From Candidatus Aerophobetes bacterium Ae_b3b (lineage in GTDB: Bacteria; Aerophobota; Aerophobia; Aerophobales; AE-B3A): a DNA stretch of 11,663 nt. A program made the translations under genes and the position numbers. The DNA lies in NCBI GenBank assembly GCA_005223085.1, contig NJBP01000061.1, forward strand, positions 1 through 11,663, written 5' to 3'. Below are positions 6,220 to 11,663 of this stretch, in pieces. Every line of letters begins with the position of its first letter. Position 1 is the stretch's first letter. The notes beneath the pieces are model-generated. The model saw only the letters and a program-made list of their open reading frames with translations. It was not told where the DNA came from and searched no databases.

Positions 6220-6587
6220 TTATGTAGCTCTTTTTTCTTCTGACAGCAGATCAATCACCAAGGCGCCGGTCCACGAGAAATTATCTGCACCCAGATCTTT
6301 TCCTGACAAAGGACTTGGCACTTTTCTGGTCCTCGGCGTTCCTATATATGCCACATTGCAATTGCGTGCACCGGAGGCTGGGTTATTGCTGAGGTTTTTA
6401 TCCGGGGAGCATAGCGAGAAAGCTCGGTTTACCAGAATTCAGGTCCAAGAAAATACTCACCCCTGTACCGAAAGATGATATGGGGGAGCATCCCGTTGGC
6501 CCATTGTCCCTCAAACAGACACAAAAGCTCCCTTTGAGCTCTTTCCTGATGGCGCTCCCATTCACGATCATTTCTCCCAGAACTCAC
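6220..6587 (-). pseudogene. Decayed GH63-like glycosidase (mannosylglycerate-hydrolase type)
   Basis: Read on the minus strand from 6587, the frame gives GQWANGMLPHIIF, then YFLGPEFW, then an in-frame TAA, then in the same frame YAPRIKTSAITQPPVHAIAM. A one-base shift near 6348 continues as YRNAEDQKSAKSFVRK. After a large gap relative to the family, another frame gives NFSWTGALVIDLL and a stop at 6222-6220. These blocks, in this order, match the (alpha/alpha)6-barrel glycosidases around GH63 mannosylglycerate hydrolase: QW-x-x-GM-x-PHI-x-F, YFPGP, TSGITQPP and the C-terminal FSWTAAL. Family members are around 400 aa or more; the N-terminal part and most of the middle are missing here. The remnant lies between the transferase operon and the methyltransferase and follows the operon on the same strand. 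It is dead by stop, frameshift and deletion. Confidence 0.65.
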
Positions 6588-6617: not shown

Positions 6618-7301
6618 TTAGTGCGTATTGAGAGATAGCTCGTCAAGCCTACCACTGAGGAAATCTAATTCGGGCGATCCTGCCTTTCTATACCTTCTCA
6701 AACTCAGCTTAAGCCGGACTAAGTCTTCAACATCGTCTACATCAAAGCGCTCCTCTAAAAGACTGTAGGTCAGTCCTAGACGCTTTACCGCCCCTAAAGT
6801 CTGATTCAACACTTTATCTGTTCCCCAGTTTATGTTCTGAAAAATCTTTCCCTCAAAGTGAGAGAGCCCCAGAAGATAATATCCTCCATCCAACGATGGC
6901 CCAATCACACACTGGCGGTTCTCTAACTTCTTAAATGCCGTAAGGACAACTTCCTTATCAAGGAGGGGAATGTCCGTTCCCACAATCACAATTTCACGGG
7001 CACCTTTTGCGAAAGCAAACCGGAAAGCGTTGGACATCCGCTGCCCTAAGTTATCTCCTCTCTGGGGAAATAGCTTTGAGCGGCCACCCAGCCAGCTTGA
7101 AAGCTTCTCTCTTTTATCAGCGGGAGTATAAAATATGAATCTCTCAGAACTCATGTCGCTGGTTTTCTTTAGGAGCAGTTCGACAAACGTCCGATAGAGA
7201 AAGGCTGCTTTATCTTTGCCAATACTTTGCGCTAATCTTGTTTTGACACATCCGGGCTCTGGGTACTTCACAAATATAATCAAAATACGTTCTAAAGGCA
7301 C
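6618..7301 (-). CDS. DUF2064 transferase (rSAM/selenodomain-associated transferase, family 1)
   Basis: 227 aa from a GTG at 7301, with GAGG 7 nt upstream. It has a nucleotidyl/glycosyltransferase GT-A fold: KYPEPGCVKTRLA at 12-24 (the P-x-x-G-x-VKTRL nucleotide-binding loop), GTDIPLL at 108-114, and GPSLDGGYYLLGL at 134-146. These are the defining blocks of DUF2064/TIGR04282, named for co-occurrence with radical-SAM/selenoprotein clusters. The reaction is not established; relatives resemble CofC-type nucleotidyltransferases and sugar transferases. The gene starts 38 nt after the flavoprotein gene on the same strand and is the last member of a three-gene set that includes the family-2 partner. 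No radical SAM gene is in the window. Length is normal and the frame intact. Confidence 0.87.
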   Translation of the reverse strand: MPLERILIIFVKYPEPGCVKTRLAQSIGKDKAAFLYRTFVELLLKKTSDMSSERFIFYTPADKREKLSSWLGGRSKLFPQRGDNLGQRMSNAFRFAFAKGAREIVIVGTDIPLLDKEVVLTAFKKLENRQCVIGPSLDGGYYLLGLSHFEGKIFQNINWGTDKVLNQTLGAVKRLGLTYSLLEERFDVDDVEDLVRLKLSLRRYRKAGSPELDFLSGRLDELSLNTH

Positions 7302-7339: not shown

Positions 7340-8773
7340 CTAGATCTTCTTTACCAACTTCAAAAGAGACTTTACCCACCGATTATTCAGTTTCTCCAGG
7401 AGCGCTTTGGTAGCAGTTGTCTTAACTACCTCAGAGAGTGTCGGATAGATGAAGACCACCTCAGAAATCTTAGAAAGAGGTATCTTCAGTGATTTGGCGA
7501 TAAGGAAACCCTGAATAGTCTCGGACGCCCCAGTACCCACAACGTGAGCCCCCAGAATAAGACCTTTTTTATTGACAATTACTTTCACCAGTCCCTCTTT
7601 TGCTACGTCGGTAATTGCACGGTCACATTCTGAAAAGCTGGTTCTATAGATCCGTATGTTCTTATGTTTCCTGCGGGCCTCCTCTTCAGTTGATCCCAGA
7701 TGAGCCAACTCTGGTTCCGTAAATAGTGCCCACCCCGCATTATCGTAGTTGGCCTTCTGCCAGAGGGGTCTGGAGAATAGTGCATTCCTCACACAGATTT
7801 GCGCCTGATAGGCTGCCATGTGACTGAAGAGGTACGGCCCTACAACATCACCACAGGCAAAGATATTCCTGTTCGTTGTCTCGAGGTGGGCACCGACAGT
7901 GATACCTTCTGGTGTAGACGCTACCCCGCACCTTTCCAACCCAAGCCCTTCTGTGTTAGGTGCTCTCCCTACAGCAACTAGCACCCGCTCACCTGAAATC
8001 TGCTGGACATTCTTGTTTTTGTCCTCCAAAGTAGCATAAACGATCCCATCGCTCTGGGTGAATTTTACTGCTTTTCTGCCAGTCAAAATTTCGATTCCTT
8101 CACTCTTAAATTTTCGCTCCAGAATCTCAGCCATCTCCCGGTCTTCTCTAAAAAGAATCGTTTCCATCATCTCTACCAGGAAAATTCTCACCCCCAACCT
8201 CTGAAGCGCCTGAGCCAACTCGACGCCAACGGGGCCCCCTCCCAAAATAATCATATCCTCAGGCAGTGTCTCCAAATCAAAAACGTTCTCATTGGTTAAA
8301 TAATCGATCTTCCCCAATCCTTCAATGGCCGGAGTAACCGGATGTGAGCCAGTGGAGATGACGCATTTCTTAAATCGGATGGCTTCGTCTCTTACCCGTA
8401 TAGTTTCCTCATCCACAAAGTGTGGACTGCCAAAAACTACAGTAGTTCCTTTCTCCTCGATAACTTCGGCAGTCTCGTGAGCGGAAACCTCGTGCATGAT
8501 GCGGCGTACATGCGCCATTACGTTATGGCTGCTTACCACAAAGTCACCCTGGATTCCCAAGCCAAATTCTGCGGTTCGCCCCACAAGGTGTACTACTGAA
8601 GCGGACTTTAGTAGTGCCTTGGAAGGAACACAGCCAGACCAGGTGCAATCACCTCCCAATCTCCTCTTTTCTACAATGCAGGTTTTCGCACCCAGGAGTG
8701 TCGCGGCGGTTGCCGCAAATAGGCCCCCTGCACCCCCTCCAATAACCACCATATCAAAATCACGCCTTTTCAC
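7340..8773 (-). CDS. FAD/NAD(P) disulfide oxidoreductase, MerA/lipoamide-dehydrogenase-like, atypical active site
   Basis: 477 aa. The start is GTG 8773, fixed by AGGGAGAG ending 5 nt before it; an ATG at 8778 meets a stop after one codon. Domains: FAD-binding VVIGGGAGG (9-17), redox cysteines in GGDCTWSGCVPSK (Cys43, Cys48), NAD(P)-binding LGGGPVGVE (177-185), a second FAD motif containing ACGDVVGPYLFSH, and the dimerisation domain. In lipoamide dehydrogenase the C-terminal motif is HPTxxE with a catalytic His; here it is YPTLSE with Tyr443 and Glu448. Mercuric reductase has a Cys pair at its C-terminus and usually an HMA domain; this protein has neither (it ends LLKLVKKI). It is therefore neither enzyme, though databases may call it one. 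It lies 15 nt after the family-2 transferase gene and 38 nt before the family-1 gene, a neighbourhood I recall from other rSAM/selenodomain clusters. The electron acceptor is unknown. Confidence 0.88.
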   Translation of the reverse strand: MKRRDFDMVVIGGGAGGLFAATAATLLGAKTCIVEKRRLGGDCTWSGCVPSKALLKSASVVHLVGRTAEFGLGIQGDFVVSSHNVMAHVRRIMHEVSAHETAEVIEEKGTTVVFGSPHFVDEETIRVRDEAIRFKKCVISTGSHPVTPAIEGLGKIDYLTNENVFDLETLPEDMIILGGGPVGVELAQALQRLGVRIFLVEMMETILFREDREMAEILERKFKSEGIEILTGRKAVKFTQSDGIVYATLEDKNKNVQQISGERVLVAVGRAPNTEGLGLERCGVASTPEGITVGAHLETTNRNIFACGDVVGPYLFSHMAAYQAQICVRNALFSRPLWQKANYDNAGWALFTEPELAHLGSTEEEARRKHKNIRIYRTSFSECDRAITDVAKEGLVKVIVNKKGLILGAHVVGTGASETIQGFLIAKSLKIPLSKISEVVFIYPTLSEVVKTTATKALLEKLNNRWVKSLLKLVKKI

Positions 8774-8788
8774 AGCATCTCTCCCTGG

Positions 8789-9487
8789 CTAACAAGCGCT
8801 TTTTTTCTTTTTCGCGATGCCATCGTACTTTACTGCCAACCGAGATGGAGATACACCTAGCAAATAGCTCAGCATATACCACACATCACGGGAGCACTGC
8901 CTGAGAATTCCGTTTTCCACGAATCTTCGGGCTGATGTTACTGCCGTCCCGGGAAATAGATAGATGTGTGTCCTCTTTCGCGCTTTTTGCAACAGCCGCA
9001 CATCCTCATACAAGGGCCAGTTAGGAAAACCGCCTATGGCGTGGAAAAAAGATGTGCGTATCACAATACCCTGATCGCCAAAGCGGGTTAATACTGAATT
9101 AAGTCGATTGCACATGGCATAGAAATTAAGCACTGGATGTTTGACATCAAGCGCTAATCGAAAAACACCAACATTTACCTTATCATCCTGAAAAAACGGC
9201 CGAAGCTGTACAAAAGCACAGGGCGGCAGTTTGGTATCAGCGTGAAGAAAAAGAAGAACATCACCCGAGGCACGGGCCGCCCCGGCATTACACTGATATC
9301 CTCGTCCCCGTTCAGAGCGGGCCACAATAGCTCCCAGTTTCTCCGCCACATGAACTGTCTTGTCGTCACTTTTTCCATCAGCAACAATTATCTCAACATC
9401 CGGGTCAAGTTGACGCAGGTGTCTAATGCAGGTACCTATGAGCTTCTCTTCGTTTAGCGTTGGAACAATAACCGAAAAAGTGATCAA
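8789..9487 (-). CDS. Family 2 glycosyltransferase (rSAM/selenodomain-associated transferase, family 2)
   Basis: 232 aa. The start is TTG 9487, chosen because AGGAGG lies 6 nt before it and SVIVPTLNEE then falls at residues 5-14, as is normal. GT-A motifs: IVADGKSDDKT (34-44), GYQCNAGA (63-70), FLHADT (80-85, the metal-binding HAD), RFGDQGIVIR (135-144), GGFPNWPLYEDVRL (152-165). These fit TIGR04283. The C-terminus is very basic (four lysines) and ends Ser-Ala-Cys. The substrate is unknown; enzymes of this group are soluble or weakly membrane-associated. It is the first intact gene of the operon, and its TTG overlaps the TGA of the truncated zwf reading frame (TTGA). Translation may therefore be coupled to that fragment, and the ribosome binding site itself lies in DNA at the breakpoint. 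Confidence 0.88.
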   Translation of the reverse strand: MITFSVIVPTLNEEKLIGTCIRHLRQLDPDVEIIVADGKSDDKTVHVAEKLGAIVARSERGRGYQCNAGAARASGDVLLFLHADTKLPPCAFVQLRPFFQDDKVNVGVFRLALDVKHPVLNFYAMCNRLNSVLTRFGDQGIVIRTSFFHAIGGFPNWPLYEDVRLLQKARKRTHIYLFPGTAVTSARRFVENGILRQCSRDVWYMLSYLLGVSPSRLAVKYDGIAKKKKSAC

Positions 9488-9834
9488 AAACTCCCTCCTC
9501 TGCAGTCATGTGTACGATCGACCCTGCTAATGAATTCCGCAAAGTGTGAATAGGTCATATTATTTTGAAGATCCATGGGATAGTAGTACACTTGTTTCAA
9601 GAATTGTGATAAGCTTTTCTGGTTCACTTGCGCTATGAACTTTTCAGGATTTAGTAGTTCTGTAAATTTATCTTTGGTAATGAGACGCCTGGCAACACAA
9701 ACTATGGGGATCTTATCGTTAATAATTTCTTTTACATATAGATTGTAAAGCGCTGGTATCAATTTTCTCTTGGTCAGGTCTCCAGTAGCGCCAAATATTA
9801 TGATGATAGCACCATAACCGATTTTTCTACTCAC
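9484..9834 (-). pseudogene. zwf: Glucose-6-phosphate dehydrogenase, N-terminal fragment
   Basis: 116 codons from GTG 9834 (AGAGGAGA just upstream) to TGA 9484. The N-terminal Rossmann motif is intact: IIIIFGATGDLTKRK at 10-24, then LIPALYNLY; GATGDL is the NADP-binding loop of G6PD. Similarity continues through YYYPMDLQNN and HFAEFISRVD, then ends in a short unrelated tail just before the expected FYLA-x-P block. G6PD is usually 450-510 aa, so about three quarters, including the substrate site (RIDHYLGK), is missing and is nowhere else in the window. It cannot be an active enzyme. The few codons before its start match the end of pgi (15 codons ending ARGEM), so this copy begins within a pgi/zwf junction. 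It is AT-richer than the operon that follows. Confidence 0.83.
9494..9499 (-). promoter_or_regulatory. Ribosome binding site that fixes the TTG start of the glycosyltransferase
   Basis: AGGAGG lies 6 nt upstream of TTG 9487. It sits inside the last codons of the truncated zwf frame, at or just beyond the point where zwf similarity ends, so it may have come with the glycosyltransferase gene. Confidence 0.65.
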
Positions 9835-9875
9835 ATCTCTCCTCTTGCCAGTATCTTTCCTGTTTTGATTTTGTA
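9788..9875. repeat. Direct repeat of pgi/zwf junction, left copy (88 bp)
   Basis: Matches 11517-11604 in the same orientation over 88 bp with 5 mismatches and no gaps. On the minus strand it covers the last 14 codons plus stop of pgi and the first 16 codons of zwf (to Phe-Gly-Ala). This copy continues into more zwf on its left but has no pgi sequence to its right, the opposite of the other copy. Confidence 0.93.
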
Positions 9876-9927
9876 ATATGTGTGTATGTAATGGTAAATT
9901 AAGTAATGAGGAACTCTCCCCTATCAT

Positions 9928-10346
9928 AAAATAATTGGAACTTCAGAACGCAACTATGATCTTTCACCCTATTGGTGACGAAGAAACAAGATGGGAGACC
10001 CTGAAATACTAGAAGAAATCAGCCTAGAAGCGACCGGGACGTTAAAATTCAATTAAACCAAGAAGTAAGAGAGGGCATTGAGAAAAGATATAACGAATAT
10101 TGCTTTTCTTTTCCAGAAATAGTCTCAACATCAAGAGAATTCGAAAAAGTGATCGGTGAGATAGTCAATCCACCTTGCAAAGTACAGTGATTCCTATAGT
10201 TCCTCCGGATTGTCTTCAAATAAAATTCGGCACACGAGATATCAGGGAAAATGGGAAACAGGACCTCTCGTGCCCTGAGCGAATCCAAAGTCGACACCAG
10301 TCCCACTAAATACTATTGTCATAGAATTCTTGATTTTCTGGTCATT
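9928..10346 (+). pseudogene. Gene-free stretch with a degenerate, frameshifted + strand coding remnant
   Basis: No intact gene in about 420 bp. On the + strand, one frame from about 10010 to 10190 gives protein-like sequence (EVREGIEKRYNEYCFSFPEI, then EFEKVIGEIVNPPCKVQ, then TGA). Overlapping that stop, the next frame continues as VIPIVPPDCLQIKFGTRDIR to about 10310. Upstream, 9940-10011, ATMIFHPIGDEETRWETLKY in yet another frame may belong to it. The composition (rich in Glu, Lys, Arg and Ile) looks like a real protein broken by frameshifts; I do not recognise the family. The minus-strand open frame at 10049-10306 is probably its shadow. No terminator or RNA gene was seen. Confidence 0.35.
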
Positions 10347-11417
10347 TTAGTAGTACTCCATGTGATTTAATATGTCCAGTAGCCGTATCTTTTTTACGGC
10401 CGTTATACTATCAGCCCCCCCATAATATATCAATAGATCCTTTTTATTTAAATCTGCTATTGCAGCGGTGGGGAAAACTACACTATTAACGAATCCGGAA
10501 GTTTCGTAATCTTCAGTTGGGTAAAATAGGGGTTCGTTTTCTGGAGATCTTGCCAATATCTTTTCCGGGTTTTTAAGGTCCAGTAAAGTAGCACCAGCGC
10601 TGTAAACATTTTTACCTCCCACTTTTTTAACACCATGATATATTTCCAGCCATCCTTGGTCAGTCTTTATTGGAGGTGTTCCTGGACCAATTCTTTCGCT
10701 TTCCCATGAATTTTCTCTTGGTTCGATAATACTTTTCTCTTTTCCCCAATAAATAAGGTCAGGTGAATGGGAAATCCAGATAGAAGGCTTGCTAAATTCA
10801 AAAAAACCCTCTGGACGGTGCAATGCAACAAATTTTCCATCTATTTTTTCGGGAAAAATGACGACATCCTTATTCTGCTCTCTAAATATGATCCCCTTTC
10901 TTTGCCAATCTACTAGATCTTCTGATACAGCCAAAGAAGTACATACCCCTTCTTTTGCGGAAACAGTAACATAACTCATGGCGTATTGGTCTCTTAACTT
11001 CATGATTCTTGGATCTTCTACCCCATACTGTCCTTCCTGCGGGGTGCCGGTAAAAACGGGTTTATTGCCAATATATTCAACATCAAAACCATTTTCATTC
11101 AGGATTACCTTTCTAAAATGCGAAAAAGTTGTCAATCTGCAGGTACCATTCTTAAGATGAATTACATGCTCTTCTTTGCCTACAATATCTAATTTATCTA
11201 TCTTTTCAATACCTATTTTATAACCTTTTCCAGGCACTACAATTGGGCAATGAATTAATTTGCCTTTATGCATATGTGGTTGTTCTGCAACCCTGATATA
11301 TAACATAATCTTACCGTTGGGAAGCCGAATAGCTGCAGGATTTAATGCACCTTTTACTTGCCAATTCTGAAAAGAAGGCTTCACATCTTCCGGTTTTATC
11401 AAAAGTTTGTTTTTCAT
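10347..11417 (-). CDS. GH130 family beta-mannoside phosphorylase or related glycosidase
   Basis: 356 aa from ATG 11417, with GGTGG about 6 nt upstream; a GTG three codons earlier is less likely. Five-bladed propeller blocks of GH130: GALNPAAIRL (23-32), YGVEDPRIM (131-139, with Asp135 the usual catalytic acid), DVVIFPEKIDGKFVALHRP (184-202), GPGTPPI and GWLEIYHG (244-262), YSAGATLLDL (272-281), VVFPTA (313-318) and YYGGAD (331-336). GH130 enzymes mostly phosphorolyse beta-1,4- or beta-1,2-mannosides to mannose 1-phosphate in the cytoplasm; no signal peptide is present, which agrees. The exact linkage cannot be read from sequence. The gene is AT-rich and sits between two copies of the pgi/zwf junction. 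Its ATG overlaps the TGA of the broken zwf frame (ATGA), so it may be translated by coupling from the pgi transcript. Confidence 0.88.
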   Translation of the reverse strand: MKNKLLIKPEDVKPSFQNWQVKGALNPAAIRLPNGKIMLYIRVAEQPHMHKGKLIHCPIVVPGKGYKIGIEKIDKLDIVGKEEHVIHLKNGTCRLTTFSHFRKVILNENGFDVEYIGNKPVFTGTPQEGQYGVEDPRIMKLRDQYAMSYVTVSAKEGVCTSLAVSEDLVDWQRKGIIFREQNKDVVIFPEKIDGKFVALHRPEGFFEFSKPSIWISHSPDLIYWGKEKSIIEPRENSWESERIGPGTPPIKTDQGWLEIYHGVKKVGGKNVYSAGATLLDLKNPEKILARSPENEPLFYPTEDYETSGFVNSVVFPTAAIADLNKKDLLIYYGGADSITAVKKIRLLDILNHMEYY

Positions 11418-11563
11418 CCTGCCCACCTGCTAATATTTTTTGATTTCGATTTTATAACCATCCACCTTGCTTTGATTAAATGATCAACCTCCAATAAAAG
11501 AAAGCCGAGGTGGCCTGCACCAAATATTATAATGATAGCACCATAACCGATTTTCTTACTCAC
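11414..11563 (-). pseudogene. zwf: Start of zwf, broken after about 16 codons, fused to unrelated sequence
   Basis: 49 codons from GTG 11563. Residues 1-16 (to IIIIFGA) equal the zwf start in the left copy apart from one Arg/Lys change. After Gly-Ala the expected TGDL is replaced by GHLGFLLLEVDHL and a basic tail, ending in a TGA that overlaps the GH130 start codon. The GTG overlaps the pgi stop by 4 nt (GTGA), as expected for a native pgi-zwf operon, so the join to pgi is original and the join on the other side is a breakpoint. It encodes no enzyme; at most it acts as a coupling leader for GH130. Confidence 0.75.
11430..11495 (-). pseudogene. Possible second pgi C-terminal remnant upstream of GH130
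   Basis: In the frame one base off the broken zwf frame, the minus strand reads Ile-Gly-Gly-stop-SFNQSKVDGYKIEI, then KKY and TAG. This parallels the real pgi end in the window (LGVNPFNQPNLEMYKIE) with FNQ and YKIE identical, although the DNA is well diverged. It could be the tail of a different pgi that once preceded GH130, which would explain the recombination. The similarity is short and contains a stop, so chance is possible. Confidence 0.28.
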
Positions 11564-11604
11564 ATCTCTCCTCTTGCCAGTATCTTTCCTGTTTCGATTT
11601 TGTA
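11517..11604. repeat. Direct repeat of pgi/zwf junction, right copy (88 bp)
   Basis: Partner of 9788-9875. This copy has authentic pgi sequence to its right and foreign sequence to its left. The two copies enclose about 1.64 kb holding GH130 and the degenerate + strand remnant. All five differences are substitutions, including an adjacent pair at the zwf second/third codon. Confidence 0.93.
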
Positions 11605-11663
11605 CATTTCAAGGTTTGGTTGATTGAAAGGGTTGACACCGAGCTTTCTCCATCTTTCCAGCT
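11560..11663 (-). CDS. pgi: Glucose-6-phosphate isomerase, C-terminal end (cut by window edge)
   Basis: Only the last 33 codons are in the window, entering from the right edge and ending at TGA 11560. The segment LGVNPFNQPNLEMYK matches the conserved C-terminal block of phosphoglucose isomerases, [LI]G-[IV]-[ND]-PF-[DN]-QP-x-[VL]-E-x-x-K, in which the Gln and the final Lys are active-site residues. The enzyme interconverts glucose 6-phosphate and fructose 6-phosphate in the cytoplasm. It could equally be the isomerase half of a transaldolase-isomerase fusion; the visible part cannot tell. The stop overlaps the start of zwf by 4 nt, so pgi and zwf formed one operon feeding the oxidative pentose phosphate pathway before zwf was broken. 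Confidence 0.75.
   Translation of the reverse strand, partial: LERWRKLGVNPFNQPNLEMYKIETGKILARGEM

Follow-up and report, generated by a model that had tools for sequence, protein, structure and literature searches.

Sugar-gene clusters of DPANN archaea and a related bacterial contig

The closest described counterparts of the locus considered here are clusters of sugar-metabolism genes in DPANN archaea. A tal-pgi-GH130 arrangement occurs in Pacearchaeota PFCU01000048 (L028), pgi-zwf pairs are present in DPANN L116 and L123, and in Pacearchaeota DPANNHV_H1.bin.39 (L077) a gene for an MGH1-like glycoside hydrolase lies directly upstream of zwf. Among bacteria, an operon of L086 combines genes of the TIGR04282, TIGR04283 and FAD-oxidoreductase families, adjoining one another on one strand.

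The window, by which we mean the whole stretch of 11,663 bp that was analysed, is an entire contig (C58 of 86) of a bacterial metagenome-assembled genome of 2.04 Mb which is 88.6% complete; the assignment to the bacterial domain is based on genes identified by eye, among them DnaX, RecR, GroEL, HslU, MviN and S20. The window carries the same families as the L028, L116 and L123 clusters, with the same neighbour pairs and strand, but its zwf is broken, its pgi/zwf junction occurs twice, and a bacterial dispersed element and a glycosyltransferase (GT)-FAD-TIGR04282 operon lie among the pieces (Table 1). The MGH1-zwf pair of L077 has a counterpart in two pieces, 67% and 62% identical to the Pacearchaeota protein and on the same strand as zwf, although in the window they belong to a pseudogene, and 3 kb of other genes lie between it and zwf. 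The three families of the L086 operon also adjoin on one strand in the window, whereas their order differs and the start of the leading gene overlaps the stop codon that closes the zwf stub.

We consider it likely that the window records a horizontally acquired and decaying DPANN-type sugar-metabolism island, comprising pgi, zwf, GH130 and the MGH1-like gene, in a bacterium whose relatives are without pgi and zwf. The transfer appears to have been directed from archaeon to bacterium, and this would be a rather clear instance of sugar genes of DPANN type within a bacterial genome, caught in the middle of their decay. The mechanism, consisting of transfer, duplication and deletion, is ordinary; partial tandem duplications and pseudogenes in other transferred islands likewise show a short direct repeat and two differently deleted copies, with no essential difference from the present locus. 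The interesting part is the donor and, to our knowledge, transfer from a DPANN archaeon to a bacterium has rarely been documented.

Table 1. Features of the window in order of descending coordinates
Feature	Position	Strand	Evidence or content
pgi 3' end (last 33 codons and stop)	11560-11661	-	translation LERWRKLGVNPFNQPNLEMYKIETGKILARGEM*; cut by contig end
88-bp repeat, right copy	11517-11604	-	last 14 pgi codons and 47 nt of zwf
GH130, intact, beta-mannoside phosphorylase family, DPANN-type	10347-11426	-	PF04041, E 1.7e-47, profile 84-319/320
Dispersed intergenic element, worn copy (76%)	10179-10293	+	between GH130 and left repeat
88-bp repeat, left copy	9788-9875	-	last 14 pgi codons and zwf start
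Truncated zwf, 116 codons, GTG start	9487-9834	-	PF00479, E 1.2e-20; TIGR00871 positions 4-107 of 486
TIGR04283 glycosyltransferase, first gene of run	8789-9487	-	E 7.5e-67, profile 2-221/221; abuts zwf break
FAD/NAD disulphide oxidoreductase, GT run	7340-8773	-	profile matches
TIGR04282 (DUF2064) protein, GT run	6618-7301	-	profile matches
MGH1-like glycoside hydrolase pseudogene, N-terminal piece	6339-6554	-	PF22422, E 5.2e-10; internal stops
MGH1-like pseudogene, C-terminal piece	6241-6318	-	62% identical to L077 protein residues 409-434

The repeated pgi/zwf junction

An earlier, sequence-only reading had described two 88-bp direct repeats with five mismatches and no gaps, containing the end of pgi and the start of zwf, and this description was borne out in both copies on the minus strand. 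The copies align without gaps and are identical at 83 of the 88 positions (94%), a match far above chance given that the best ungapped 88-mer match in 200 mononucleotide shuffles reached at most 47. All five differences are transitions, which fits the expectation for drift, and a divergence of about 6% implies that the duplication is not fresh. The right copy passes from the end of pgi into a zwf start (GTG at 11563), and homology to zwf is lost after 47 nt, at codon 15-16, in agreement with that reading. The left copy passes from 14 pgi codons into 116 codons of zwf; here the broken zwf had been recognised correctly, its length of about 110 codons needed correction, and the statement that no pgi is present was not quite right. 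Since the window is the entire contig, pgi runs past its end.

The two copies bracket 1641 bp that contain the GH130 gene, complete and in the place given to it earlier, together with non-coding sequence; the degenerate stretch 9876-10306, read in four pieces, matched nothing in Pfam. Joining the copies would restore pgi-zwf, as had been pointed out, and the geometry of the repeats agrees with this. The best reading of the 88-bp repeat is that it has no function of its own and is the overlap left by two deletions.

On the reading that we favour, the cluster would have come from a DPANN archaeon or from a source close to one, and its pgi/zwf junction would have been duplicated during or after acquisition, the simplest route being a local tandem duplication that took in pgi, zwf and GH130. 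Of the two copies, one may then have kept pgi and GH130 and lost zwf after codon 15-16, while the other would have lost all of pgi except 14 codons. A rearrangement could subsequently have cut the surviving zwf at codon 116 and joined it to the TIGR04283 operon. The order given here for the duplication and deletion steps is tentative.

Direct repeats bracketing 1641 bp, whose joining restores the continuity of pgi-zwf, are also what an insertion with duplication would leave, if a molecule carrying the pgi/zwf junction and GH130 had entered by Campbell-style homologous recombination at a resident, already foreign junction. This geometry is the part of that earlier suggestion which stands. The insert itself holds only GH130 and non-coding sequence and is free of integrase, plasmid and phage genes; Rfam and tRNA scans for a site gave nothing, a phage collection yielded no match, and the lone plasmid match covered 62 bp inside a GH130 gene. 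Because nothing element-like lies between the repeats, we rank integration second. Moreover, the insert includes an old copy of a native dispersed element (see below), a sequence that only an incoming molecule from the same lineage would bring with it, and a repeat at 94% identity is not fresh. We regard such an insertion as unlikely.

The remainder of zwf and a second pgi were also sought in the genome, as the sequence-only reading had proposed. No G6PD_C domain, no further G6PD N-domain that would indicate a second zwf and no other PGI were found anywhere in the 88.6%-complete assembly, and the idea of recombination between two paralogous pgi loci has no second pgi to support it.

DPANN affinity of GH130 and zwf

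The GH130 protein shares 71% identity with a Woesearchaeota sequence (L014). A 53-sequence tree places the two as sisters (98/96) within a clade of 20 rows (support 99/99) that is composed almost entirely of DPANN. GH130 proteins from its own order are distant, at 29-44% identity, the best-scoring of them at 36-44%. For zwf, the window sequence and three DPANN sequences form a clade with support 99/92. The N-terminal MGH1-like piece is closest to the Pacearchaeota gene that adjoins zwf in L077, other matches to the L077 protein among 41 genomes being at 26-40%; for this gene the DPANN affinity is by identity only. The pgi fragment is 64-67% identical over 22-24 amino acids to the pgi of Pacearchaeota L028, of DPANN L116 and L123, and of bacterial L009, so that one bacterial pgi matches about as well as those of DPANN, and the 33 visible codons are too short for a tree test of origin.

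Neither zwf nor PGI found a match in the relatives sampled from the order and family (16 genomes, completeness 69-93%); at such completeness an absence from any one genome counts for little, but its recurrence across 16 of them is not weak evidence. The MGH1-like gene was not found in the family of the window genome. With zwf and PGI missing across the sampled order, nothing points to a native central-metabolism operon that could have been broken, and the earlier description of the locus as a broken central-metabolism operon, which overlooked the foreign character of the genes, does not apply to these DPANN-like genes. Comparison with close relatives, suggested as a way to find an intact pgi-zwf without GH130, revealed no relative with an intact ancestral arrangement, and the relatives searched in the order carry neither pgi nor zwf.

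One bacterial sequence alone cannot give the direction of a transfer, and the genes might in principle be ancestral in the bacterium and have been acquired by DPANN archaea from such bacteria. This we consider very improbable, given that GH130 is nested in a broad, 20-row DPANN clade, that zwf lies inside DPANN clades and that members of the order lack pgi and zwf matches. DPANN bins may be contaminated, two of the GH130 relatives being labelled Chloroflexi and Thaumarchaeota, and we therefore infer the direction from clade composition. The bins in question, L018 (Thaumarchaeota) and L019 (Chloroflexi), hold DPANN-type GH130 genes that probably reflect binning contamination or further transfers.

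The four genes of the putative island differ in their state of preservation. GH130 shows the full-length PF04041 fold and has all 78 residues that do not vary among 16 DPANN homologues, and for that reason the gene is probably still in use. Its product matches the NCBIfam mannobiose phosphorylase models below their cut-offs. If any member of the island is still in use, it may be GH130, of predicted mannoside phosphorylase type, and possibly pgi. By contrast with the full-length GH130, the truncated zwf covers a small N-terminal part of the glucose-6-phosphate dehydrogenase profile and the C-terminal domain is missing, while the MGH1-like gene has lost about 290 codons between its two pieces.

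A more far-reaching version of these events can be envisaged, in which an entire cluster for the oxidative pentose phosphate pathway and mannosides (pgi-zwf-GH130-MGH1, possibly including tal) was taken from a DPANN archaeon and shed gene by gene, GH130 being kept and the zwf stub becoming a translationally coupled leader of the glycosyltransferase operon. We put this forward as a speculative and rather doubtful extension.

Native DNA among the DPANN-like pieces

The right part of the window has a GC content of 0.378, against about 0.43 for the genome and 0.45-0.52 for the left part, and the drop, from about 0.48, falls at 9487. In tetranucleotide make-up the right part lies within the tail of the genome, where 8% of 2-kb windows are equally deviant. 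The switch in both taxonomic affinity and GC content at 9487, the position of the foreign part at a contig end and the abrupt cut in zwf at the same point would all be expected if a DPANN contig had been joined to a bacterial contig, in assembly or binning, near 9487, at the 88-bp repeat or at both. A mis-joined or mis-binned DPANN contig, to which GH130, zwf and the GC content pointed, was nevertheless dropped in view of the dispersed element and the MGH1-like remnant. A join at a restriction site (GATC) at 9487 was also considered and set aside.

The dispersed element is about 165 bp long, its 3' part forming an inverted repeat, and the worn copy in the window is flanked by DPANN-like pieces on both sides. 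It has 33 matches in the window genome (about 30 copies), 14 in another genome of the same genus (G001) and further ones across its family and order; copies are located on contigs C5, C11, C15, C49, C73, C74 and others, several of them between core genes. Good copies score 240 bits and the window copy 77 bits, whereas 343 DPANN genomes gave only chance-level fragments, the best at 45.5 bits over 34 bp. Judged by this distribution, the element is native to the lineage of the bacterium, and it is embedded in the foreign part. It may represent a MITE or a palindromic repeat family specific to the order, and an Rfam scan gave no match for the window copy.

The MGH1-like remnant provides the converse case, DPANN-like sequence on the bacterial side, beyond the GT-FAD-TIGR04282 operon. 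Given the placement of the native element and of this remnant, an artefact would require several independent joins to the same donor, and the interleaving of DPANN-like and native DNA argues against a chimera of assembly or binning. Furthermore, the repeat copies differ at five of 88 sites and are thus not one sequence used twice, and the break in zwf falls at the start of a gene, as would not be expected of a random join. The 88-bp repeat is probably not an assembly error, and we rate an artefact of either kind as distinctly improbable; the assembly join at an 88-bp overlap proposed in the sequence-only reading is disfavoured by the lineage-specific element between GH130 and the left repeat and by DPANN-like remnants to either side of native genes. 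The locus is a warning that a real scar can take the form of a short repeat at a contig end, and the dispersed element offers a way of separating scar from assembly error without reads.

Alignment to many zwf genes shows that homology is kept up to the motif HDCRG, which places the break no more than about 10 bases from where the glycosyltransferase begins. The stub closes with a stop codon (TGA, 9486-9484) that shares bases with the TTG start of the following gene (9487) as TTGA (9487-9484), and an AGGAGG motif ahead of this start sits within the zwf reading frame (9484-9500 region). The truncated zwf may now provide the translation start of the glycosyltransferase, through the TTGA overlap behind the AGGAGG in zwf codons.

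At the opposite end of the contig, positions 1-972 comprise nearly 1 kb without a convincing open reading frame. The frame at 3-275, which has no Pfam match, was considered as the end of an IS110-type transposase, an idea that found no support (E 0.015, 27%). Within the same region a 119-bp sequence (391-509) is repeated on contig C53 (88%), beside a transposase-like gene, and on contig C75 (85% over 68 bp).
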